52,412 bases of DNA from Clostridiales bacterium (GTDB taxonomy: Bacteria; Bacillota; Clostridia; Christensenellales; Aristaeellaceae). A program made the translations under genes and the position numbers. How positions within the stretch are numbered: position 1 is the first letter of the stretch; every line of letters begins with the position of its first letter. Of this stretch, positions 2,241 to 29,352 are shown one piece after another. Below the pieces are notes generated by a model, which saw only the letters and a list, made by a program, of their open reading frames with translations, was not told where the DNA came from and searched no databases. The stretch lies in contig JAAYOH010000037.1 in NCBI GenBank assembly GCA_012520375.1, positions 1-52,412 of the forward strand, given 5' to 3'.

Positions 2241-3224
2241 TTAGTAGACGCGCTGGTCGATGACGTCCGCCGCCAGGATGGAGGTGACGCCGCACTCGAT
2301 GCCGCCCACGCAGTCAAACACGCCCTCTTCGGGGTGGACGACGGTCTTGTCGTACTCCTGACCGGCTTCCAGGTTCTTGATGGCTTGGATGACGAAGGGG
2401 CTGTACAGCGGGGTGCACTCCACGGTGCAGTTCATCTCGCCCGCAACGATGGCGTCAAAGGCGGCCTTCACCGAGTCGCAACCCACGATGATGATGTCCT
2501 TGCCGGGTACCAGGCCGGCGGCTTTGATGGCGTCGATGGCGCCCAGGCCCATGTCGTCGTTCTGGGCCAGCAGCACGTCGATCTTGTCGATGGATTTCAG
2601 GAAGCTTTCCATGACAGCCTGGCCTTCGGCGCGGGTGAAGTTGCCGGACTGCTGGGCCACCAGTTTGAGGTTGGGATACTCGGGCAGGCACTCCAGGATG
2701 CCGTTGCTGCGACCGATCTGGGCGTCGGAGCCGGTGGTGCCTTCCAGCATGACCACATTGATCTCTTCCTCGCCGCGGCCGATGCTCTTCATGTACTCGC
2801 CGGTCCAGCGGGCCATGCGGCGGCCTTCCTCGACGAAGTCGCCGCCGAAGGCGACCTTGTAGTCGATGACGTCGGCGCAGTCGGGGATGCGGTCCAACAG
2901 GATCAGCGGGATCTCGGCCTCGTTGACCTCGGTCAGCACCTCTTCCCAGCCGGTGGACACCACGCCGGTGAACAGGATGTAGTCGACGCCTTGGGTGATG
3001 AAGTTGCGCAGTGCTTTGATCTGGTTTTCCTGTTTCTGCTGGGCGTCGTCATACACCAGGGTCCAGCCCTCGGCCTCGATGGCGCTGCAGACGTCGTCGG
3101 TGTTGGCGGTACGCCAGTCGGATTCCTGACCAATCTGGGAGAAGGCGATGGTCAGCGCCGAGGCGCTGGAGGCCAGGGCCAGAGCCAGTACCAGGGCCAG
3201 AACGAGAGTGAGAAGTTTTTTCAT
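2241..3224 (-). CDS. ytfQ: YtfQ-like sugar-binding protein of an ABC importer
   Basis: This is the extracytoplasmic substrate receptor of the importer, 327 residues, a periplasmic-binding fold of the ribose/galactose class. The N-terminus is a clear signal peptide (MKKLL, long Leu/Ala core, ASA cleavage site near residue 23), and there is no lipobox cysteine. The stretch QQKQENQIKALRNF near residue 62 and DRIPDC-type loops match the E. coli galactofuranose-binding protein YtfQ closely, so a furanose sugar is the best guess. The start has an AAGGAGG site at 3233-3240. It is the first gene of the operon, behind a near-consensus promoter. Confidence 0.88.
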   Translation of the reverse strand: MKKLLTLVLALVLALALASSASALTIAFSQIGQESDWRTANTDDVCSAIEAEGWTLVYDDAQQKQENQIKALRNFITQGVDYILFTGVVSTGWEEVLTEVNEAEIPLILLDRIPDCADVIDYKVAFGGDFVEEGRRMARWTGEYMKSIGRGEEEINVVMLEGTTGSDAQIGRSNGILECLPEYPNLKLVAQQSGNFTRAEGQAVMESFLKSIDKIDVLLAQNDDMGLGAIDAIKAAGLVPGKDIIIVGCDSVKAAFDAIVAGEMNCTVECTPLYSPFVIQAIKNLEAGQEYDKTVVHPEEGVFDCVGGIECGVTSILAADVIDQRVY

Positions 3225-3248
3225 GGGGATTTCCTCCTTACCAATAAT

Positions 3249-3262
3249 CGGACAAGTGTCCG
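3249..3262. promoter_or_regulatory. Candidate operator palindrome in the ytfQ leader
   Basis: CGGACA-AG-TGTCCG is a perfect 6-bp inverted repeat with a 2-base spacer. It sits just downstream of the -10 box at 3272-3277, over the expected first transcribed bases, a classic position for a repressor site. No regulator gene is adjacent in the window. Confidence 0.5.
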
Positions 3263-3271
3263 TATGGTGTA

Positions 3272-3300
3272 ATTATACATGATGAAGAAGGGATTGTAAA
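3272..3300 (-). promoter_or_regulatory. Promoter of the YtfQ-like sugar importer operon
   Basis: Read on the minus strand, TTTACA (3300-3295) and TATAAT (3277-3272) are separated by exactly 17 bases, a near-consensus housekeeping promoter. It points at the binding protein gene 48 bases downstream. Confidence 0.8.
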
Positions 3301-3500
3301 GAAGAAATTTCAAAAAGAACCGGCAGTGTGGCCAAAAATCAACGAGAAATATGTGGAACAAATGTTTTTTGGGGCGCATTTACCGGGAACGGTGTTGCCG
3401 GTTTCACAGAGCGGAATAAGGCGCTGAAAACACGGCTCTATCGCTATGGAACCTCCCTTGTGAAACCCAGGCATAGCACCGGATACTGCTGTCTTTCCGA
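3301..3500. other. Intergenic stretch without recognised feature
   Basis: This is the part of the 308-base gap between the sugar importer promoter and the tRNA terminator. I see no gene-like reading frame with a ribosome site, no repeat and no convincing structure. Distant regulatory sites for the importer could lie here. Confidence 0.5.
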
Positions 3501-3530
3501 ATAAAAAAGCCCCCCTGATAATTTGGGGGG
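3501..3530 (-). terminator. Rho-independent terminator of tRNA-Lys
   Basis: On the minus strand, six C, a 9-base loop and six G are followed by C and a run of six T. It starts three bases after the mature 3' end of the tRNA, so the tRNA forms a one-gene transcription unit. Confidence 0.85.
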
Positions 3531-3532
3531 AA

Positions 3533-3605
3533 TACGCCATCAGGGACTCGAACCCTGGACACCCTGATTAAGAGTCAGGTGCTCTACCAACTGAGCTAAT
3601 GGCGC
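3533..3605 (-). tRNA. tRNA-Lys (anticodon CTT)
   Basis: The minus strand folds as a 73-nt cloverleaf. The acceptor arm GCGCCAT pairs with ATGGCGT, including a G-U first pair, and is followed by discriminator A. The D-arm GCTC...GAGC, anticodon arm CCTGA-CTCTTAA-TCAGG with anticodon CTT, and T-arm with GGTTCGAGTCC are all regular. CCA is not encoded. It reads AAG (and not AAA by strict pairing) lysine codons, the common one in a GC-rich genome. Confidence 0.95.
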
Positions 3606-3626
3606 ATAAAACCGACAACAGTAAAT

Positions 3627-3655
3627 ATTTTACTCCCTTACAAGAGATTTGTCAA
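3627..3655 (-). promoter_or_regulatory. Promoter of tRNA-Lys
   Basis: On the minus strand TTGACA (3655-3650) and TAAAAT (3632-3627) are separated by 17 bases. The predicted start of transcription is about 15 bases before the mature tRNA, leaving a short leader. Confidence 0.8.
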
Positions 3656-3710
3656 TAGCTTTTGCAGCGAAATCCCATTAAGCTTTGGTGGTGGATGCAA
3701 GAAGGATGGC

Positions 3711-5033
3711 TTAACATCCTTGGGTTTCTGCAAAGTGGGCGAAGAGGGTAAGGGCCAGCAGGTCGGCGCAGCCTCCGGGGCTCAGGCCTTCTGATACGAA
3801 GGACTGGTTCAGGCGGTCAAGTTGCTCCGGGCCGGGGAAGGGCTGCTCGCTGAGCAGTTCGGACAGTTCCGCTGCCAGGGCCTGCCAGCGGGAGAGGGAA
3901 GAGCGGCCGATGAACACGGTGTCGGGGACCACACACAGGAGGGAGAGGAGCGTGCCGCAGGCAGCGTCGTTGAGGGAGAGGCCCATGGAGAGCCCCCGGC
4001 GCAGTTTGGGGAGCGCCACTTTGGTCACGGCGGGGAAACCTGCCGCTGCCATGCCCCGCACCCCCGTGATCCCGTGGGCAAGGTACAGCCTGTCTCCCAC
4101 GGTGGCGGCGTTTTCCGGGGTCAGTCCTTCAAAGTGGGTTTTTACGGCATCTTCCACCATATGTCCGCACAGGGAAAAGGCGGGATCCGGGGCAAAGGGT
4201 TTTCCGGCGGCGTAGAGTTTTCCCGTCGCGGCGCACAGAAGGCCCATGGAGAAGATGGCGCCCTTGTGGGTATTGACCCCCCCGGTAGCCCTGAACATGG
4301 CTTCCTCTCCCCGCATGCCCGCCTCAGCAAGGAGGGGGAACAGGTCCTTTGGCCCGTTGTTCATGCCGATCAGGGCAGCCTCCTCAAAATAGGGGGATAG
4401 AACGGGGACGGCGCGCAGGAAGGAGAAAAAGTCCATGTCGTCATGGGCGCCGTTGTCCAGCCTGTCCACCAGCCCGGGCTTGGGCCCCACCGCCGCCTCG
4501 AAGAGCAGGGCGCGCTGGGCCAGTTGGGCGATGTGCCGGGCCGTGTCCCGTTGCCTGTCCCGGCGCAGGATGTCCATGCAGCGACGGAACAATTCTTCTA
4601 TGCTGTGGGCCCTGCTGCGGGCGCATTCGTGGGCGGGCTTGCAACAAATCAGGCAGGTTCGGGGATGGGGGCGGTCAAGCTTGCGGCCTTCATTGTCCAG
4701 CACGTCCAGGTCGTAGAGGCGGCCCGTTTCGTCCGCTTCTTCGATGGCCATGCACTGGATTTTGAGACGAACGGGATCCCCCTCCACCACAAAGATGGCC
4801 TCACAGCCCGTATCCAGCAGGGACAGAGCTTCGTGGAGGATGGTGAAACGATTCCGCAGCAGCTTGACGCCCCGGTGGAAAGCCCTGCAGATTTCCGGGT
4901 CGCTCTTGAGGGGACCCGGGATGTTCAGGGTAAAGCAGATGAGAGGCTTGGAAAATCGACGGAGCAGCGCCTTCTGCAAGCGGGCCCGCTCTTCCCTTGC
5001 GGCCAGCATGGCGTTTACATCGACAAGTGGCAA
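3711..5033 (-). CDS. citXG: CitXG: holo-ACP synthase / triphosphoribosyl-dephospho-CoA synthase fusion
   Basis: This is a 440-residue cytoplasmic fusion that makes and attaches the prosthetic group of citrate lyase. The N-terminal part (about 1-165) matches CitX, which transfers phosphoribosyl-dephospho-CoA to the acyl carrier subunit: note GRLYDLDVLD and the Cys-rich RTCLICCKPAHECARSRAHS. The C-terminal part (about 170-440) matches CitG, which makes triphosphoribosyl-dephospho-CoA: note AAVGPKPGLVDRLDNGAHDD and GGVNTHKGAIFS. The TTG start is backed by a GGGGGGA site 7 bases upstream. No citrate lyase genes (citCDEF) lie in the window, so its client is encoded elsewhere or is a different ACP. 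A 7-bp inverted repeat at 3702-3721 over the 3' end could be a weak terminator. Confidence 0.9.
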   Translation of the reverse strand: MPLVDVNAMLAAREERARLQKALLRRFSKPLICFTLNIPGPLKSDPEICRAFHRGVKLLRNRFTILHEALSLLDTGCEAIFVVEGDPVRLKIQCMAIEEADETGRLYDLDVLDNEGRKLDRPHPRTCLICCKPAHECARSRAHSIEELFRRCMDILRRDRQRDTARHIAQLAQRALLFEAAVGPKPGLVDRLDNGAHDDMDFFSFLRAVPVLSPYFEEAALIGMNNGPKDLFPLLAEAGMRGEEAMFRATGGVNTHKGAIFSMGLLCAATGKLYAAGKPFAPDPAFSLCGHMVEDAVKTHFEGLTPENAATVGDRLYLAHGITGVRGMAAAGFPAVTKVALPKLRRGLSMGLSLNDAACGTLLSLLCVVPDTVFIGRSSLSRWQALAAELSELLSEQPFPGPEQLDRLNQSFVSEGLSPGGCADLLALTLFAHFAETQGC

Positions 5034-5063
5034 GATACATCCCCCCGGGGCGAAGATAAAGTG

Positions 5064-5092
5064 ATTGTACCATGGTTCAAGGGGTGGGACAA
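5064..5092 (-). promoter_or_regulatory. Promoter of citXG
   Basis: On the minus strand TTGTCC (5092-5087), 17 bases, and TACAAT (5069-5064) preceded by TGG, which makes an extended -10. It lies 30 bases before the TTG start codon. Confidence 0.6.
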
Positions 5093-5135
5093 GGTGAGCG
5101 TGGAGCCCGAGCGTGTTGCCCTATCGTTCCTGCGC

Positions 5136-5164
5136 AAAAGGAGCCGGAACTGCGCTCCGGCTCC
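5136..5164 (-). terminator. Terminator of the rhamnoside operon
   Basis: On the minus strand a perfect 9-bp stem (GGAGCCGGA / TCCGGCTCC) with a 7-base loop is followed by TTTT. It lies 18 bases after the stop of the rhamnosidase gene and separates it from citXG. Confidence 0.8.
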
Positions 5165-5181
5165 CTGCATTCGGGCTGGGA

Positions 5182-7839
5182 TCAGAACAGGGGGGCGGCT
5201 TTTTCCACAATCTCTTTGTGCACCGTGTCCCCGCTGACCGTATAGCGGAAACTGCGCTGCCCGCTGCCGCAGCGGAAGATGGCGCAGCCCTCCCGGGCTT
5301 CCTGGGGCGTTGCAGGAACGCCGTCCAGCAAGATCGTCTGCCCTTCGGCGTCGGGCAGCCAGATTTCGGCGGTTGCGTTGAAGGGAATGTGGATGGTCAG
5401 GGTGAGCTCGCTTCCGTCCAGGGTCCAGGCACTTTCCACCTTGCCGTGGACGGTCTGGATGGAAGCCCGTGCGAAGCCCAGGGTGTCGTGGACCCGGGGC
5501 CGGATGACCACATGCTTGTAGCCGGGCTGCTTGGGGTCGGGATTGATGCCCGCCACGTACCGGTACAGCCACTCGCACACTGCGCCGAAGGCGTAATGGT
5601 TCAGGGAGTTCATGCTCACCGGGCCGAAGGAGCCGTCGGGGCGCACCGAGTTCCAGCGCTCCCAGATGGTGGTGGCGCCCATGTCCACCTCGTACAGCCA
5701 GCTGGGGCATTCGCTTTGCATCAGCAGCCTGTAGGCATATTCGTTCAACCCGCATTCGGACAGCACGGGGCACAGGTAAGGCGTGCCCAGGAAGCCGGTG
5801 GTCAGCTTGAACCGGTCGATCTCCAGTCGTTCCGCCAGGCATTCCGACGCTTTTTCCCGCTGCCCGGGCAGCAGCATGTCCATGTTGAGGGCCAGGAGGT
5901 AGGCGGTCTGGGTTTCGGAGCTGACCCGGCCGCTCTCGGACACGAATTCCTTCCGGAAGGCGCTGCGCACCCGCCGGGCCAGATCGGCATAGAAAGCCTC
6001 GTCCTCGGGCTTCTCCAGCAGTCCGGCGACCCGGGAGAGCAGTTCGGCGGACCAGGCATAGTAAGACGTGGCTACCAGGGTGGTGGGGGTGAGGCCGAAG
6101 AGGTTGTCCGGATCCTTGGTGTCCTGGGCCAGCCAGTCCCCCAGGTGAAAACCCTGGTACAGGTCCACACCCTCCACGTCCTGTTCCCGCATGTAGTCCA
6201 CCCAGGCTTTCATGCTGTCGTACTGGTCCTCCAGGACCGCTTTGTCTCCGTAATACAGGTACAGATACCAGGGGATCAGCACGGCGGCATCCGCCCAGCC
6301 GGTGGTGGTGAAGTTCCAGATCCCGGAATCCCGGATGAAGTTTGGGATGACCACGGGGACATAACCTGACACGCCCTGTTCCAGCTTCATGTCGTACAGG
6401 TATTTGCGGAAAAAGGCGTCGCTGTCCATGTTCATGCAGGCGGTGGGGCAGAAGACCTGGGCATCCCCGGTCCAGCCCATGCGCTCGTCCCGCTGGGGGC
6501 AGTCGGTGGGGACGTCCACGAAGTTGCCCCGTTGGCTCCACAGGGCGTTGCGGAACAATTGATTGACCCGCTCCTCGGAGCACCGGAAACTGCCTATGGT
6601 AGCCATGGCGGAGTAGATGGCGTGTGCGGTGACGGCTTCCAGGGGCAGATCGTGTCCGGTGACCTTGAGGTAGCGGAAACCGTGGAAGGTGAAGTGCTCC
6701 GTGTAGATCCTGGCTTTGCCGTCGGAGATGTAGATCGCCTCCGCCAGAGCGGTTCGCATATTCTCCCGGTAGAAATTGCCTTGGGCGGTAAGGGCCTCCC
6801 CGAACTGGAACAGGATGCGGGTGCCCTCGGGCGCGTCGATCTTAACTTCCAGGATGCCTGCGATGTTCTGGCCGAAATCGAAGACCTGTTCCCCTGCGGG
6901 GGTCAGGATCTTTTCGATGGCGGGCAGGGCGTGCATGGCTTTGACGGGGATGCTCCGCCGGGCCTGCAGCAGAGACTTGTCGATGTCCACCGCCTGGGCC
7001 CTCTCGCCGCTGCCGCAAACTTTGCACCAGTCCTCGTCGTAGAGGCGGGCGTCAAAGACTTCGCCGTCGTAAATCTCGGTGCGCAGGTAGGGGCTGGTCG
7101 TGGCTTCCCAGCTCTCGTCGGTGAGGACCAGGTCCCGGGTGCCGTCCGTGTATTCGATGTCCAGTTCCAGGATCAGACCCAGCTTGTCGCCGTAGATGCA
7201 GCGGCGCTCCGGGATACCGGGCCAGTTGACCCGGCCTTTGTAGTAGCCGTTGCCCAGCCAGGAGCCGATGACGTTCTGCCCCTGGACCAGCTTGTCCGTC
7301 AGATCGTAGGTTTGGTACTGGATCCACAGGTCGTAGGCGTTGAAGCCCGGGGTCAAGAGCTCGTCGGAAGCCGGCTCGCCGTTGAGGAAGAGCCGGTACA
7401 GCCCCACGCCGCTGGCATAGGCCCGGGCCCGGCGCACGGGCTTGGCGACCTGAAAGCTCTTGCGCAACTGGGGAAAGTCCCGGTCGAAGCCGATCCACTT
7501 GGCCTGCCAGGGCTTGTCATAGCGCCCCGTCTCGAACCAGGAAGGCTCGGAGAAAGGGCTCTCCTGACCTGCTTCATCGTAGACCTTTACCCGCCAATGG
7601 TAGCGCGTACAGGGGGCGAGGGACAGGGGCAGCCGGAAGCCTATACTTTGATCCGAAAGCACCTTTCCGGTGTCGTACAGGATATTTCCGAAGGCCGGGT
7701 CCAGGGACACCTGCAGTTGGAAGGCGCTCTGGCGCTTGTCCAGGCCCTCCGTTTCCGCGACCCAGTTCAGGGTAGGCCGATGGAAGTCGAAGCCCAGGGG
7801 ACGATCCATGTAGTCGCATTGGAGTCTGGTGATCTGCAT
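5182..7839 (-). CDS. Alpha-L-rhamnosidase, GH78 family
   Basis: This 885-residue enzyme removes terminal alpha-L-rhamnose from glycosides or oligosaccharides by an inverting mechanism. The N-terminal beta-sandwich domains (RPTLNW and WRVKVYD near residues 22 and 82) and the central (alpha/alpha)6 barrel follow the GH78 order. The hallmark DCPQRDERMGWTGD is at about 446-459, with Glu452 the likely general acid; TIWERWNS around Glu727 supplies the likely base. No signal peptide is seen, so it acts in the cytoplasm on sugars imported by the ABC system encoded just upstream. RBS AGGAGG precedes the ATG. Length is typical for the family. Confidence 0.93.
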   Translation of the reverse strand: MQITRLQCDYMDRPLGFDFHRPTLNWVAETEGLDKRQSAFQLQVSLDPAFGNILYDTGKVLSDQSIGFRLPLSLAPCTRYHWRVKVYDEAGQESPFSEPSWFETGRYDKPWQAKWIGFDRDFPQLRKSFQVAKPVRRARAYASGVGLYRLFLNGEPASDELLTPGFNAYDLWIQYQTYDLTDKLVQGQNVIGSWLGNGYYKGRVNWPGIPERRCIYGDKLGLILELDIEYTDGTRDLVLTDESWEATTSPYLRTEIYDGEVFDARLYDEDWCKVCGSGERAQAVDIDKSLLQARRSIPVKAMHALPAIEKILTPAGEQVFDFGQNIAGILEVKIDAPEGTRILFQFGEALTAQGNFYRENMRTALAEAIYISDGKARIYTEHFTFHGFRYLKVTGHDLPLEAVTAHAIYSAMATIGSFRCSEERVNQLFRNALWSQRGNFVDVPTDCPQRDERMGWTGDAQVFCPTACMNMDSDAFFRKYLYDMKLEQGVSGYVPVVIPNFIRDSGIWNFTTTGWADAAVLIPWYLYLYYGDKAVLEDQYDSMKAWVDYMREQDVEGVDLYQGFHLGDWLAQDTKDPDNLFGLTPTTLVATSYYAWSAELLSRVAGLLEKPEDEAFYADLARRVRSAFRKEFVSESGRVSSETQTAYLLALNMDMLLPGQREKASECLAERLEIDRFKLTTGFLGTPYLCPVLSECGLNEYAYRLLMQSECPSWLYEVDMGATTIWERWNSVRPDGSFGPVSMNSLNHYAFGAVCEWLYRYVAGINPDPKQPGYKHVVIRPRVHDTLGFARASIQTVHGKVESAWTLDGSELTLTIHIPFNATAEIWLPDAEGQTILLDGVPATPQEAREGCAIFRCGSGQRSFRYTVSGDTVHKEIVEKAAPLF

Positions 7840-23655: not shown

Positions 23656-25398
23656 ATGTTGCTTGAGATACAAGTGCATAACGTCGCCCTGATCGATGCG
23701 CTGTGCCTGGAGCTGGGAGAAGGTTTGAATGTGCTCACCGGCGAGACGGGGGCCGGCAAGTCCATCCTGGTGGGGGCGCTGAACCTGGTATTGGGAGGCA
23801 GGGCGGACCGTTCCATCATCCGAACCGGCGAAGAACAGGCCAGTGTGGAGGCCCTGTTTGACATCGGCAACTGCCCGGAGGCCAGGGAATTGCTGGCGGA
23901 ATGGGGCATCGAGGGGGACGAGAATCTGGTCAGCGTGAAGCGCAGCCTGACTGCCGCCGGGCGCAGCCTGTGCCGGGTGGCGGGCAGCGTGTTGCCTCTG
24001 TCCCGATTCCGCCAGCTTACGGGGGCGCTGGTGGAATTGCACGGTCAGCATGAGCACCAGAAACTGTGCGATGAGGGGCAACACACCGGGTTTTTGGACG
24101 CCTTCGGGGGCTTGGAACACCAAAGGCTTCTGGAAAAGGTCGCCGTGGATCACGAGTCCTTTGCCGGACTCCGGCGTCAGGCGGAGCGGCTGAAAGGGGA
24201 CCTGGCAGAGCGGGAGCGGCTGCGGGACGTCCTTTGCTATCAGATCGATGAGATCGATCAGGTCAGGCCCAAGGCAGGGGAGATGGAAAAGCTGCAACAA
24301 AAGAGCAGGTTGCTGGGCAGCGCCATGAAGATCTCCCAGCGACTGGAACGGGCCTGCGACCTGGTGTACCGGGGCGGCAAGGATGCCAGTGTGCAGGAAT
24401 CCCTGAAAAAGGCCGCGGACGCCATGGCCTCCATCGGGGATCTGGATCCCCGCTTTGAAAGCCTGGCCCGGCGGCTGGAAGAGCTCTTCTACGGGGCTCA
24501 GGACCTGGGCAGCGAACTGCTGGACCTGTGCGAGACCACGGAATTCGACCCGGGGGAAGAGGAGCGGGTGGCGAGTCGGCTCAGCGCCCTGAAGGGGTTG
24601 ACAAAAAAGTACGGGCCGGAACTGGAAGACGTGATACAATTTCGGGCCCGGGCCCGGGAGAGGCTGGAGGAGATCGAGTCCGGGGACGAGCGGCTGGCGG
24701 AGCTGGAACGGGAATTGGATGTTGCCGATAAAAAGCTGGAGGAGAGTTGCCGGGCTTTAAGCGACAGCAGGAAGGCCCTTGCGCCCCGTCTGTCGGAGCG
24801 CATCCTGGAGGAACTGAAGGCGCTTGGCATGGAAAAGGCTCGTTTTGCCGTGCGCTTTCAGGGGACGGGAGAACCTACCAGGCAGGGCGCCGAGCGGGCC
24901 GGCTTTCTGTTGTCAGCCAACCCCGGCGAACCCATGAAGGCCCTGGCCGACGTGGCGTCGGGGGGTGAGCTCAGCCGCATCATGCTGGCCATGAAGACGG
25001 TGGCAGCGGACCAGGCGGGGGTGGACGCCATGGTGTTCGACGAGATCGACACAGGGGTCAGCGGGCGCATGGCCCAGGCAGTGGGAGAGAAGATGGCCCT
25101 GATCGCGGGACGCAGACAGGTGATCTGTGTCAGCCACCTGCCCCAGATCGCGGCTTTGGGGGACCGGCACTACCTGGTGGAAAAGCAGGAACAGGGAGGG
25201 CGGACCAGCACCACGGTGCGGCTTTTGGATGAGGAAGGCCGGATCGAGGAGCTGAGCCGCATGGTGGGGGGCGCGGGAGAGATGGAGAGCTCCCGGACCC
25301 ATGCTGCCCACATGCTCAGCGCCGCGCGGGACCGGGCAACTGCCCTCCGAAGGGCCGAACGAGAAAAAAGGAGCAATGAACATGACGGAGAGGATTAA
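23656..25398 (+). CDS. recN: DNA repair protein RecN
   Basis: This 580-residue SMC-like ATPase acts early in double-strand break repair. The Walker A motif GETGAGKSI is near residue 29; long coiled coils follow (about 155-215 and 290-380); the signature SGGELSRIMLAMK and Walker B FDEIDTGVSGRMAQ lie near 440-475. The gene overlaps the glycyl radical enzyme gene by 17 bases at its 3' end, which is unusual for this conserved neighbourhood. Confidence 0.96.
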   Translation: MLLEIQVHNVALIDALCLELGEGLNVLTGETGAGKSILVGALNLVLGGRADRSIIRTGEEQASVEALFDIGNCPEARELLAEWGIEGDENLVSVKRSLTAAGRSLCRVAGSVLPLSRFRQLTGALVELHGQHEHQKLCDEGQHTGFLDAFGGLEHQRLLEKVAVDHESFAGLRRQAERLKGDLAERERLRDVLCYQIDEIDQVRPKAGEMEKLQQKSRLLGSAMKISQRLERACDLVYRGGKDASVQESLKKAADAMASIGDLDPRFESLARRLEELFYGAQDLGSELLDLCETTEFDPGEEERVASRLSALKGLTKKYGPELEDVIQFRARARERLEEIESGDERLAELERELDVADKKLEESCRALSDSRKALAPRLSERILEELKALGMEKARFAVRFQGTGEPTRQGAERAGFLLSANPGEPMKALADVASGGELSRIMLAMKTVAADQAGVDAMVFDEIDTGVSGRMAQAVGEKMALIAGRRQVICVSHLPQIAALGDRHYLVEKQEQGGRTSTTVRLLDEEGRIEELSRMVGGAGEMESSRTHAAHMLSAARDRATALRRAEREKRSNEHDGED

Positions 25399-27400
25399 GG
25401 AGATCAAGGAGTATCAGTGGGAGAAACGTCATCACAAGGCGCGACAGCCCTTGCCGGAGACATTGTGCTACCGGGATCCGGGGCTGAGCGATACCCTGCG
25501 AAGCGCCCTGCGCACCAAGCAGGCCCTGGATGCCGAACAGCCCTTCCTGTTCCCGGGGGAATACATCGCCTTTACCCGCACCCTGCCCAACCTGCCCTTC
25601 CTGTATGACGAAGGGGAGTGGGCGGACATCACCTCCACCCATTTCATCCACGAGTCGGGCAATGTGAGCAACCTCTCCCCGGACTACGAGGCGGTGCTGC
25701 AGCATGGCCTGCTGTATTTCCGGGAGCGCCTGGGGGACGGGGAACTGCACAAAGCCACCAGGATCACCATCGACGCCTTGCTCTCCCTCACTGCCCGGTA
25801 CGCTGCGGCGGCACGGGAAGCGGGCGACGAGGAACTGGCCACGGTACTGGACCGGGTGCCCGCCCAGGGTGCCCGCACTTTCCGGGAGGCGCTCCAATCC
25901 CTGCGCATCCTCCACTATGCCATGTGGTGTGAGGGGGACTACCACAACACCCTGGGGCGATTCGACCAGTATATGATGCCCTACCTGGCGGATGACCTGC
26001 AGGCGGGACGGGAGACGGAAGAGAGCGCACTGGAACTGGTGGAGGCCTTTTTCCTGGCCTGTAACCGGGACAGCGACCTGTACCCCGGCATGCAGCAGGG
26101 AGACAACGGCCAGAGCATGGTGCTGGGGGGCATGACCCGGGACGGCGCGGACGGGTACAACCTGCTGACCGGGTTGTGCCTGGACGCCTGCGGCGAATTG
26201 ATGCTGATCGACCCCAAGATCAACCTGAGGGTAAACAAAAACACGCCCCTGTGGGTGTATGAAAAGGGGACCCGGCTGACCCGGCTGGGCTTGGGATTCC
26301 CCCAGTACCAGAATGATGACGTGGTGATCCCGGGCTTGGTCCGGCTGGGTTATGCCGAAGGGGATGCCAGGGACTACGCGGTGGCAGCCTGCTGGGAATT
26401 CATCATCCCCGGCAAGGGTATGGAAATTCCCAACATAGGGGCCCTGCCCTTTGCAAATATCGTGGACGAGGCCATTCGCTTCGACCTGAAAGACTGCACC
26501 GATATGCAGGCCCTGAAGGAGAAGGTGCGGCAGCGCATCTTTGACAGCGTGGCCGCTGCCATGGCGGAGCGCAAAAACCTGTATATTATCCCTTCTCCCT
26601 TCCTGTCCCTCTTCTTTGAAGGGTGCATGGACAGCGGGCGGGATATCTCCCTGGGCTGCCGCTACAACAACTGGGGCTTGCACGGTACCGGACTGGCCCC
26701 CGCTGCCGACATGTTGGCTGCGGTAGAGCAGAAGGTATTTGAAGAAGGGCTGCCCGTGGATACCTTGCTGGCTGCCCTGGAAGCGGATTTTGTCGGCTAT
26801 GAAGAGCTGCACGAAAGCCTGAAGTACCACAGCCCCAAGATGGGCAACGATGAGGACCGTGTGGACGCCCTTGCCTGCTGGCTGCTGGAGAGTTTTGCGG
26901 AGGCGGTCTCCGGGCACAAAAACGAGCGGGGCGGTATCCTGCGGGCGGGCACGGGTTCGGCCATGTACTACATCTTCCACGCCAACGAGTTGGGCGCCAC
27001 GGCGGACGGTCGGGAGGCAGGCGTGCCCCTCCCTGCCAACTATGCCCCTTCTTTAAACATCCGCCTGAACGGGCCGGTCTCCCTGATCAAGTCTTTCACC
27101 AAGCCTGATCTGGAAAAGACCATCAACGGCGGGCCCCTGACCGTGGAGTTCTCGGACCGCGTGTTTGCCCAGGAGGAGTCCATCACCAAGGTGGCGCAGC
27201 TGGTACAGCTTTTCGTGCTGCGGGGCGGCCACCAGATCCAGCTGAATACCGTGAACCGGGAGCGGCTGCTGGACGCCCAGAGGCATCCGGAGAAATACCG
27301 GAACCTGATCGTGCGGGTATGGGGCTGGAGCGGTTATTTTGTGGAACTGGACAAGTGTTATCAGGATCACATCATCCAAAGGACGCAGCTGAATGTATGA
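25382..27400 (+). CDS. Glycyl radical enzyme of unknown substrate (PFL-like family)
   Basis: This 672-residue enzyme belongs to the glycyl radical superfamily. The radical loop near the C-terminus reads RVWGWSGYF with Gly648, close to the canonical RVxGYxAxF. The active-site loop is DYAVAACWEFIIPGKG with Cys337 and Glu339, the C-x-E spacing of eliminase or dehydratase members (glycerol/propanediol dehydratase, choline lyase) rather than the Cys-Cys of pyruvate formate-lyase. It is about 100-170 residues shorter than those enzymes. The chosen ATG has GGAG 8 bases upstream. The activase gene overlaps its end. The reaction cannot be named from sequence alone. Confidence 0.88.
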   Translation: MTERIKEIKEYQWEKRHHKARQPLPETLCYRDPGLSDTLRSALRTKQALDAEQPFLFPGEYIAFTRTLPNLPFLYDEGEWADITSTHFIHESGNVSNLSPDYEAVLQHGLLYFRERLGDGELHKATRITIDALLSLTARYAAAAREAGDEELATVLDRVPAQGARTFREALQSLRILHYAMWCEGDYHNTLGRFDQYMMPYLADDLQAGRETEESALELVEAFFLACNRDSDLYPGMQQGDNGQSMVLGGMTRDGADGYNLLTGLCLDACGELMLIDPKINLRVNKNTPLWVYEKGTRLTRLGLGFPQYQNDDVVIPGLVRLGYAEGDARDYAVAACWEFIIPGKGMEIPNIGALPFANIVDEAIRFDLKDCTDMQALKEKVRQRIFDSVAAAMAERKNLYIIPSPFLSLFFEGCMDSGRDISLGCRYNNWGLHGTGLAPAADMLAAVEQKVFEEGLPVDTLLAALEADFVGYEELHESLKYHSPKMGNDEDRVDALACWLLESFAEAVSGHKNERGGILRAGTGSAMYYIFHANELGATADGREAGVPLPANYAPSLNIRLNGPVSLIKSFTKPDLEKTINGGPLTVEFSDRVFAQEESITKVAQLVQLFVLRGGHQIQLNTVNRERLLDAQRHPEKYRNLIVRVWGWSGYFVELDKCYQDHIIQRTQLNV

Positions 27401-28250
27401 AAAAGAGACGGGCGTCGTCTTTGACATCAAGGAGTTTGCGGTATTCGACGGGCCGGGCATCCGCACCACCGTTTTCCTGAAGGGCTGCCCCCTGCGCTGC
27501 CGCTGGTGCCACAACCCCGAAGGGTTGTCCCCGGCGCCCCAGCTCATGGTGAGCCGGGCGGCCTGTACCCGTTGCGGCGCCTGCGAGAAAGTGTGCCCAA
27601 GTCCGGGGGCCTGTATCCTGTGCGGCGCCTGTATCCCCCAATGCCGGAGCGGCCTGCGGAAGATTGCGGGGACGCGGATGGGCGCGGCGGAACTTGCAGA
27701 CCGCCTGAAAAAGGATGCGGACATCTACGGCGCCACCGGGGGCGGCGTCACCTTTTCCGGGGGCGAGCCTCTGCTACAGTGGAGTTTTCTGCGGGAGGTG
27801 ATCCGCCTCCTGCCCGGCATCCACACGGCGGTGGAGACCAGCGGTTATGCCTCAGACGAAGTATTCAGGGAATGCATGGACATCTGCGGGCTGGTCATGC
27901 TGGACTGGAAGGTCTCGGACCCGGCGCTGCACAGGGCGTATACCGGGGTGGACCAGTTGCCCATCCTGCGGCATGCCCGGATGCTGGCGGAGGGAGATAC
28001 CCCTTTCATCCTGCGCATGCCCATCATCCCCGGGGTGAACGACAACCCAGAGCACTTTCGCTTTGCGGCCCGGCTGGTGGAAGGGGCAAAAAGTCTGGTC
28101 CGGGTGGATCTTCTGCCCTACCAGCGCGCCGCCGGGGCCAAGTACGAGATGGTGGGAAGAATGTACGACCCCGGATTTGACGAGGACAGGGTGCCCTGCT
28201 TTTTCCCGGAAGAGTTCGAAAGCCGGGGGATTCCCTTCCAAAGGTTCTGA
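27393..28250 (+). CDS. Glycyl radical enzyme activase (radical SAM)
   Basis: This 285-residue radical SAM enzyme makes the glycyl radical on the partner encoded directly upstream. The SAM cluster motif is C32-x3-C36-x2-C39 (GCPLRCRWCHNPEG). A ferredoxin-like insert carries two complete sets C58-x2-C-x2-C-x3-C68 and C74-x2-C-x2-C-x3-C84, only five residues apart, which should hold two extra 4Fe-4S clusters. This insert is typical of activases for dehydratase/lyase-type glycyl radical enzymes and absent from PflA proper. The ATG lies eight bases inside the upstream gene. Confidence 0.93.
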   Translation: MYEKETGVVFDIKEFAVFDGPGIRTTVFLKGCPLRCRWCHNPEGLSPAPQLMVSRAACTRCGACEKVCPSPGACILCGACIPQCRSGLRKIAGTRMGAAELADRLKKDADIYGATGGGVTFSGGEPLLQWSFLREVIRLLPGIHTAVETSGYASDEVFRECMDICGLVMLDWKVSDPALHRAYTGVDQLPILRHARMLAEGDTPFILRMPIIPGVNDNPEHFRFAARLVEGAKSLVRVDLLPYQRAAGAKYEMVGRMYDPGFDEDRVPCFFPEEFESRGIPFQRF

Positions 28251-28288: not shown

Positions 28289-28317
28289 TTGCCCCGGGAG
28301 AGGATTTGTTCTATAAT
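28289..28317 (+). promoter_or_regulatory. Promoter of the class II aldolase gene
   Basis: TTGCCC (28289-28294), 17 bases, TATAAT (28312-28317). It shows that the aldolase gene is a separate unit from the glycyl radical pair. Confidence 0.7.
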
Positions 28318-29280: not shown

Positions 29281-29306
29281 CGCCCCGCTTGCCGGGGCGT
29301 TTTTTT
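29281..29306 (+). terminator. Terminator of the class II aldolase gene
   Basis: CGCCCCG and CGGGGCG form a perfect 7-bp stem with a five-base loop, followed by seven T. It lies 12 bases after the aldolase stop. Confidence 0.9.
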
Positions 29307-29323: not shown

Positions 29324-29352
29324 TTGACGAAAGCGGGGCTTTGGGGTATACT
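29324..29352 (+). promoter_or_regulatory. Promoter of the epimerase-trkA-trkH run
   Basis: TTGACG (29324-29329), 17 bases, TATACT (29347-29352), immediately after the aldolase terminator. Confidence 0.7.

Follow-up and report, generated by a model that had tools for sequence, protein, structure and literature searches.

The closest described relatives of the enzyme considered here are glycyl radical enzymes (GREs) with a Cys-x-Glu active site. The Escherichia coli enzymes PflD and YbiW, lyases of 1,5-anhydromannitol 6-phosphate and 1,5-anhydroglucitol 6-phosphate, turn anhydrohexitol 6-phosphates into 1-deoxyfructose 6-phosphate according to a review (PMC12441222). The Cys-x-Glu pair and the fold are also found in the B12-independent glycerol dehydratase (PDB 1r8w) and in 1,2-propanediol dehydratase (5i2a, 9rco), while fold and mode of activation are common to further members of the superfamily, namely CutC, HypD, HpsG/HpfG and the indoleacetate and 4-hydroxyphenylacetate decarboxylases. 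Functions are unknown for many abundant gut GREs, as stated in a 2024 review (PMC11574389). Here, we describe a GRE and its activase from a Clostridiales bacterium, encoded on a stretch of 52,412 nucleotides (contig JAAYOH010000037.1, positions 1 to 52,412; hereafter the window). The pair is a new variant without assigned function within a known enzyme kind rather than a new kind. In our preferred reading, to which we give a probability of roughly 0.42, it would consist of an activase and a radical C-O lyase whose substrate is L-arabinose, or a pentose or close derivative made from it. In broader terms, the enzyme probably degrades a sugar by a hitherto undescribed route.

The GRE gene (25382..27400, plus strand) encodes a protein of 672 amino acids with hits to the pfam domains PFL-like (PF02901, E 1.4e-89) and Gly_radical (PF01228, E 1.9e-20). 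Its start was taken as the ATG at 25382, which lies inside a longer frame opening at 25301 and 8 nt behind an AGGAG ribosome-binding site read from the sequence (25369..25373, plus strand); an alternative ATG at 25376 is too near this site. Alignments place the predicted thiyl residue Cys337 and the predicted base Glu339 in an AACWEF motif (A335-A-C337-W-E339-F; 26384..26401, plus strand), and Gly648 in the radical loop RVWGWSGYF, which begins at R645 (27314..27340, plus strand). A first, sequence-only reading of this DNA had described a 672-residue GRE with these three residues, and both the positions and the pfam domains bear this out.

A scan of GTDB species with an 11-row alignment returned at least 594 stretches with the pattern, at least 572 of them encoding a relative (E 1e-3 or better). 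From these, 80 stretches at 49-74% identity were kept, belonging to Bacillota, Bacteroidota, Spirochaetota, Verrucomicrobiota and Lentisphaerota. Loci and genomes are labelled L and G, respectively, and the set includes duplicates (L036 equals L024, L042 equals L025, and L052 probably equals L027). Among 59 relatives of the window genome, ten carry members at 49-73% identity over most or all of the protein, and G019 carries GRE fragments only: on its contig C29 (L034, 8630-9787) incomplete remnants are scattered over several frames and represent a decayed version of this gene. The family is patchy, since only 1/397 other genomes in an even sample of the window's phylum carries the GRE. Members occur in many gut and rumen bacteria, among them the named strains Hungatella hathewayi, Eisenbergiella tayi and Parabacteroides chinchillae. 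Viral contigs gave no match, and none of 140 plasmid records reached 60% identity, the best listed being 33.8%.

The 81 rows of the family alignment (80 distinct) have a mean column identity of 61%, and about 100 columns, catalytic ones included, are invariant. Cys337, Trp338, Glu339, Trp647 and Gly648 show no variation at all, and within the QQGDNGQS loop (residues 238-245; 26093..26116, plus strand) every position is invariant except N242 (over 90%). Because the catalytic-site residues are invariant across 81 aligned members, the motifs are not due to chance and a sequencing slip is unlikely. A truncated or broken gene was ruled out by this conservation together with full-length superposition. 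The clade might nevertheless comprise several enzymes with different substrates, for example in the members with a RIWGWSA loop (L072, L094, L096 and L107); Ala replaces Gly651 in 6/70 members checked and the gene sets at the GRE loci differ by lineage, but against the invariant columns we consider such a split rather improbable.

None of the 12 NCBIfam models that matched the GRE reached its own cut-off. The protein scored 319.9 bits with the PFL2/glycerol dehydratase subfamily TIGR01774 (cut-off 678.2), 271.6 with the PflD equivalog NF007437 (cut-off 1109), 282.8 with HypD (cut-off 1100) and 259.9 with CutC (cut-off 1050). Taken together, the equivalogs for HypD, CutC, HpfG, HpsG, indoleacetate decarboxylase and 4-hydroxyphenylacetate decarboxylase gave 136-283 bits against cut-offs of 1000-1150 and were thus widely missed, and assignment to any described GRE equivalog was rejected on these cut-offs. 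Pyruvate formate-lyase (PFL) proper was rejected as well, for the active site reads A-C-W-E instead of Cys-Cys and the score with TIGR01255 was 72.6 versus 994.2 bits. The closest PDB chains by sequence are PflD and glycerol dehydratase.

In a quick maximum-likelihood tree of 41 rows, 28 family members stood apart on one side of a single supported branch (starred in the tree). The outgroup consisted of PflD, YbiW, Klebsiella CutC, HypD (L019, above the HypD cut-off), an Enterococcus GRE, two other GREs of the window genome, five other GREs of relatives and the second GRE of L095; several of its branches are long. The nearest neighbour was the L020/L021 group (SH-aLRT 81), whose GREs share the C-W-E motif and a Trp after the radical Gly with the family but differ in a RVSGWNA loop and have only 27% identity to it, and whose placement is unsure owing to long branches. 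L020 and L021 represent another GRE group without assigned function (708-732 aa, GCWE and RVSGWNA motifs). A further, very divergent GRE-like family was seen in L002 (contig C31 of the window genome) and in the second GRE of L094/L095, with RIHGTFVNF rather than RVxGYSA as radical loop and GCQE as active site (read in L002 and L095); in L094/L095 this GRE is accompanied by a separate short activase and by an FGGY kinase. The claim that the window's enzyme is an unassigned member of the Cys-x-Glu branch therefore stands on NCBIfam, tree and PDB comparisons, and the clustering with an assigned enzyme that had been named as its possible refutation was seen neither among the NCBIfam equivalogs, nor in the tree with PflD, YbiW, CutC and HypD, nor among the PDB chains. 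No paper assigning this family was found in a search that missed most subscription journals; it may correspond to an unassigned cluster in the published gut GRE network.

The AlphaFold2 model of the GRE, built from the 81-row alignment, has a pLDDT of 92.3 and a pTM of 0.92; it replaced an earlier model from 11 rows in which the active-site loops had a pLDDT under 50. VIA-align superposed the prediction on E. coli PflD with Z 41.4 and a root-mean-square deviation of 2.4, aligning 665 of 672 residues. PflD with 1,5-anhydromannitol-6-phosphate (41.0), an Archaeoglobus GRE (40.6) and glycerol dehydratase (40.2) followed, and YbiW (38.1), PFL (about 30) and class III ribonucleotide reductase (about 22) ranked lower. 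The nearest structures are mostly eliminases, with the top rows near ties that spread little over 1 Z, and within the barrel fold Cys337 aligns with Cys433 of 1r8w. On superposition, 1r8w, 5i2a and 9rco are about 29-30% identical to the GRE; PflD and YbiW are 31% and 28% identical and fall in a separate clade. The GRE had been called shorter than characterised members, which is true in so far as PflD and YbiW are longer by 93 and 138 residues, most of the length missing relative to PflD being explained by an absent loop (about 49 residues, behind residue 76-77) and by smaller deletions. It is not truncated, though: since the superposition on PflD spans nearly the whole length, the predicted model indicates a compact but complete enzyme.

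Mapped onto glycerol dehydratase, whose residue numbers were counted from the printed alignment and whose residues we take to have the catalytic roles ascribed to them, C337 and E339 correspond to C433 and E435, H188 to H281, N97 to H164, N351 to D447 and G525 to Y640. The histidine at position 188 is thus shared, whereas H164 and D447 are replaced by Asn, and the QQGDNGQS loop stands in place of a glycerol dehydratase loop that is 5 residues longer. In the 28 treed members, 28 residues never vary and occur in none of 11 other GREs from the tree. For this count L002 and the second GRE of L095, as the most divergent rows of the outgroup, were set aside, and the 11 do not include glycerol dehydratase, which has His at the H188 position. 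Among these residues are N97 (His or Asp in the 11), H188, D230, Q238, Q239, N242, K279, A336 (Gly in the 11), N351, G525, T587, E589 (Lys in the 11) and W647. PflD and YbiW differ from the family at N97, H188, N351, G525 and W647, with PflD having His, Ser and Asp at the first three positions. The polar residues among these invariants suggest a substrate with multiple hydroxyls, and the eliminase-type pair in the invariant Cys337-Trp338-Glu339, together with the structural kinship, suggests that the enzyme may be an eliminase, as put forward in the sequence-only reading.

The activase gene (27393..28250, plus strand; 285 aa) shares 8 bases with the 3′ end of the GRE gene. Its product passed the GRE-activase subfamily model TIGR02494 with 259.1 bits (cut-off 174.35), this being a general model; no specific NCBIfam activase model was passed. 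Pfam returned Radical_SAM and weak Fer4 matches. The cysteines are arranged as CX3CX2C (C32, C36, C39) and as CX2CX2CX3C sets at C58-C68 and C74-C84, so that the activase with two extra cysteine sets described from the sequence alone is corroborated by the residues and by the TIGR02494 score. Two-cluster activases are ordinary for the GRE superfamily, and both extra sets were found in 47/48 family activases readable by the motif pattern. The activase of the family GRE in L048 (6018-7004) has neither CX2CX2CX3C set, which, judged from the sequence, is a natural loss of the auxiliary clusters. In 83/92 loci (at least two of the 92 being duplicates of others), the GRE has its activase on the same strand no more than 1.5 kb away; the distance is larger in L081, L104 and L114, and no activase was found in six loci (L041, L056, L100, L102, L108 and L111).

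Evidence for a sugar substrate comes from the genes beside the GREs of relatives. Contiguous same-strand neighbours were obtained for 53/80 loci, and two genes per side were kept (117/179); eight loci (L041, L042, L050, L051, L053, L055, L056 and L074) were lost to a longer antisense frame. For comparison, a random 115 of 260 distant genes from the same loci were used. The families listed were 25 of 47 and 25 of 57 for the near genes and 25 of 117 for the distant genes, hence the wording "at most 1" below. Sugar_tr transporters made up 24/117 operon neighbours versus at most 1/115 distant genes, and the arabinofuranosidase C-terminal domain 7/117 versus at most 1/115; aldose 1-epimerase accounted for 5/117 and was not among the families listed for the distant genes. 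A tblastn survey of the 80 loci (1,296 kb), with seeds taken mostly from the loci themselves, found a sugar porter within 2.3 kb in 28/80 and an arabinofuranosidase of glycoside hydrolase family 51 (GH51) or 127 (GH127) in 23/80, at 30 places. Aldose 1-epimerase (GalM) was found in 11/80, a class II aldolase in 6/80 and an isomerase in 4/80. The AraG seed matched 11 loci but also catches general ATP-binding cassette (ABC) ATPases; after a length filter, a sugar-type ABC ATPase of 454-523 aa remained in 6/80 (L036, L038, L048, L057, L060 and L079). In the 36 genomes of the window's bacterial family, GH51 was matched 68 times and GH127 92 times over 96 Mb. The density of 23 per Mb at the GRE loci versus 1.7 per Mb in these genomes is only an indication, as the two figures come from different methods and many of the loci belong to other phyla.

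L-arabinofuranose is the sugar common to GH51 and GH127, and in L110 both are fused in one polypeptide encoded by the third gene after the GRE. The GRE of L048 adjoins araA, araB and araD (read by eye). G026 has the same set as L049, consisting of GRE, activase, ABC importer, YesM, regulator and GH127 (84% identical). In G400, which is one contig and belongs to another family, the ABC ATPase beside the GRE is 59% identical to that of G011, and both resemble xylose and L-arabinose importers while remaining below those cut-offs. In Bacteroidota, GRE and activase lie directly with a transporter, a glycosidase and a mutarotase.

Several observations weigh against a role in arabinose metabolism. 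Neither a sugar transporter nor an arabinosidase is encoded in the operon of the window itself; GH127 shows no neighbour excess (1/62 near genes versus 2/115 distant genes, and not among the 25 families listed for the other 55 near genes); and 57/80 loci have no GH51 or GH127 match, many of them being short contigs. GH36-, GH3- and GH4-like genes also occur near the GREs, the activase is the only near-constant partner, the neighbour tallies treat loci as independent despite shared ancestry, and H. hathewayi, E. tayi and Lachnospiraceae CE91-St56 carry the GRE together with a strong L-arabinose isomerase (AraA) match. The check for transporters or microcompartment genes proposed in the sequence-only reading was thus answered in part, with sugar porters near many relatives and none at the window copy, and with no microcompartment family among the listed neighbour families (25 of 47 and 25 of 57).

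As GH51 and GH127 are missing from 57/80 loci and GH36-, GH3- and GH4-like genes occur, another sugar such as galactose is possible. The enzyme might then be a lyase for such a hexose, or an anhydrosugar lyase of the PflD/YbiW kind for an unphosphorylated or pentose anhydrosugar, with the link to arabinose being incidental. PflD ranks first among the structures, less than 1 Z ahead of the next, and aldose 1-epimerase and GH36-like genes lie near family GREs, as does a lactonase-like protein after the activase in L027. We regard this as quite unlikely in view of the wide miss on the PflD equivalog, the substitutions at N97, H188 and N351 relative to PflD, and the fact that GH51 and GH127 both indicate L-arabinofuranose. 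Furthermore, pflD of E. coli is located inside a phosphotransferase system (PTS) cluster and ybiW is clustered with fsaA; at the family GRE loci, no PTS family was among the listed neighbour families.

A class II aldolase (PF01116; 28364..29269, plus strand) behind the activase probably belongs to the same pathway as the GRE. It is 62-64% identical to the aldolase of the spirochaete locus L079. There, activase and GRE are followed in order by an isomerase, the aldolase and a xylulokinase-like FGGY kinase of which the stretch covers only the start, with a divergent sugar ABC system beside them. Aldolases from five other GRE loci reach 30-39% identity to the window's, and class II aldolases at GRE loci fall in three subgroups. 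The isomerase, which abuts the GRE in L036, shows remote similarity to sulfoquinovose isomerase (110 of 700 bits). In L136 (G024 C162, 4205-8883), a member of this isomerase family is lined up with an activase and with another GRE, PFL2-like and 809 aa long, hinting that isomerase and GRE form a recurring pair. One could therefore imagine that isomerase, kinase and aldolase split a pentose to dihydroxyacetone phosphate (DHAP) and glycolaldehyde, and that the GRE acts downstream by dehydrating glycolaldehyde or ethylene glycol, comparable to propanediol dehydratase in the fucose and rhamnose pathways. The gene run of L079, the class II aldolases in several loci, and the closeness of glycerol and propanediol dehydratases in sequence and structure would agree with this, but no isomerase, kinase or aldolase was recognised in the Bacteroidota loci and the family-specific polar residues suggest a multi-hydroxyl substrate, so that we consider such a downstream role unlikely.

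In the window genome (95% complete), GH51 is matched twice, and neither GH127 nor AraA is matched. Its L-ribulokinase scores 686.8 bits against a cut-off of 583.25, its AraD-like gene stays below the cut-off (347.8 versus 389.1 bits), and one member of the isomerase family is present (44% identity). In seven GRE genomes looked at separately, AraA was not matched in G026 (97% complete), G400 (99%) and P. chinchillae and was weak in Bacteroides sp.; P. chinchillae also had no AraD match and no ribulokinase over the cut-off. Because three GRE genomes have a strong AraA, the GRE is not a simple stand-in for it, though it may be one in some genomes. Within the window's family, strong AraA showed no contrast between GRE genomes (3/11) and others (6/25). 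Ribulokinase over the cut-off was found in 8/11 GRE genomes versus 7/25 others (p 0.025); for ribulokinase unaccompanied by a strong AraA the figures were 6/11 and 4/25 (p 0.039), both uncorrected, with a borderline AraA in G028 (25.4 versus 24 bits) counted as absent and G019 counted as without the GRE. L-ribulokinase genes above the curated cut-off were seen on G000 C16, G002 C72 and G004 C31, draft genomes without any AraA match.

These counts, like the gene content of the window genome, would fit a radical aldose-ketose isomerase which takes a hydrogen at C2 and breaks the bond between C1 and the ring oxygen, leaving C1 with the OH and turning L-arabinose into L-ribulose for ribulokinase. 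We consider this very unlikely. The tests are two, with small numbers, draft genomes and relatives treated as independent; an ordinary isomerase family is sometimes found beside the GRE and also in the window genome; P. chinchillae has the GRE but neither an araA or araD match nor an araB over the cut-off; and it is not evident what a radical route would gain here.

The preferred reading, a C-O lyase for L-arabinose or a derived pentose, would work as follows. Plant arabinans or arabinosides would be cut and the sugar imported before the GRE acts. By analogy with the superfamily, the activase would use S-adenosylmethionine and a 4Fe-4S cluster to place a radical on Gly648, which would pass to Cys337 as a thiyl radical that takes a hydrogen from a hydroxyl-bearing sugar carbon. 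Glu339 would take the hydroxyl proton, and the resulting ketyl radical would expel the neighbouring C-O bond, so that a hydroxyl leaves in a dehydration, or the ring oxygen in a ring opening of the type that PflD and YbiW carry out on 1,5-anhydrohexitol phosphates. Return of the hydrogen from Cys337 would give a deoxy-keto or deoxy-aldehydo sugar, from which the class II aldolase of the window lineage may yield DHAP and an aldehyde. Residues, family and gene neighbourhood are established from the sequences and the fold is predicted; for substrate, broken bond and product the scheme offers candidates by analogy. A more specific form, in which the GRE opens or dehydrates unphosphorylated L-arabinose and thereby lets bacteria without a recognisable araA, such as P. 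chinchillae and the window organism, use sugar derived from arabinan or arabinosides, is doubtful but would constitute a radical entry to pentose catabolism in anaerobic bacteria of gut and rumen.

In the window, recN precedes the GRE, and the aldolase, a xylose-isomerase-like TIM-barrel gene (PF01261; 29324..30169, plus strand, start uncertain) and the potassium genes trkA/trkH follow the activase. A promoter-like site (10 of 12, consensus match only; 28289..28317, plus strand) lies between activase and aldolase, and a terminator-like stem (29281..29299, plus strand), made up of 7 GC pairs with seven T after it, lies behind the aldolase, the only all-GC stem among the 7 terminator-like sites found. 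A second promoter-like consensus match (29324-29352) follows this stem within the first codons of the TIM-barrel frame. These sites suggest a transcript layout weakly, since their counts are near chance expectation (4 promoter-like sites versus 1.8 expected, 7 terminator-like versus 7.2). The TIM-barrel gene was discounted as a partner of the GRE, as it lies beyond the all-GC stem and has its own promoter-like site, and as no homologue was found in the other GRE loci; it is probably a separate transcript with a weak link to the GRE. Elsewhere in the window (2244-7839, minus strand), we observed genes for a YtfQ-like (galactofuranose-type) binding protein, a CitX-CitG fusion and an alpha-L-rhamnosidase-like protein, two of them being sugar genes.

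To our knowledge, no glycyl radical enzyme is known to act on an unphosphorylated sugar. If the substrate is indeed a free pentose, the enzyme would be the first GRE of its sort to do so, and an oxygen-sensitive branch would be added to the routes by which one of the most common sugars of plant cell walls is degraded in the gut. Even without the substrate, a large unassigned GRE family has been delineated, with members in named strains and a short list of candidate compounds.

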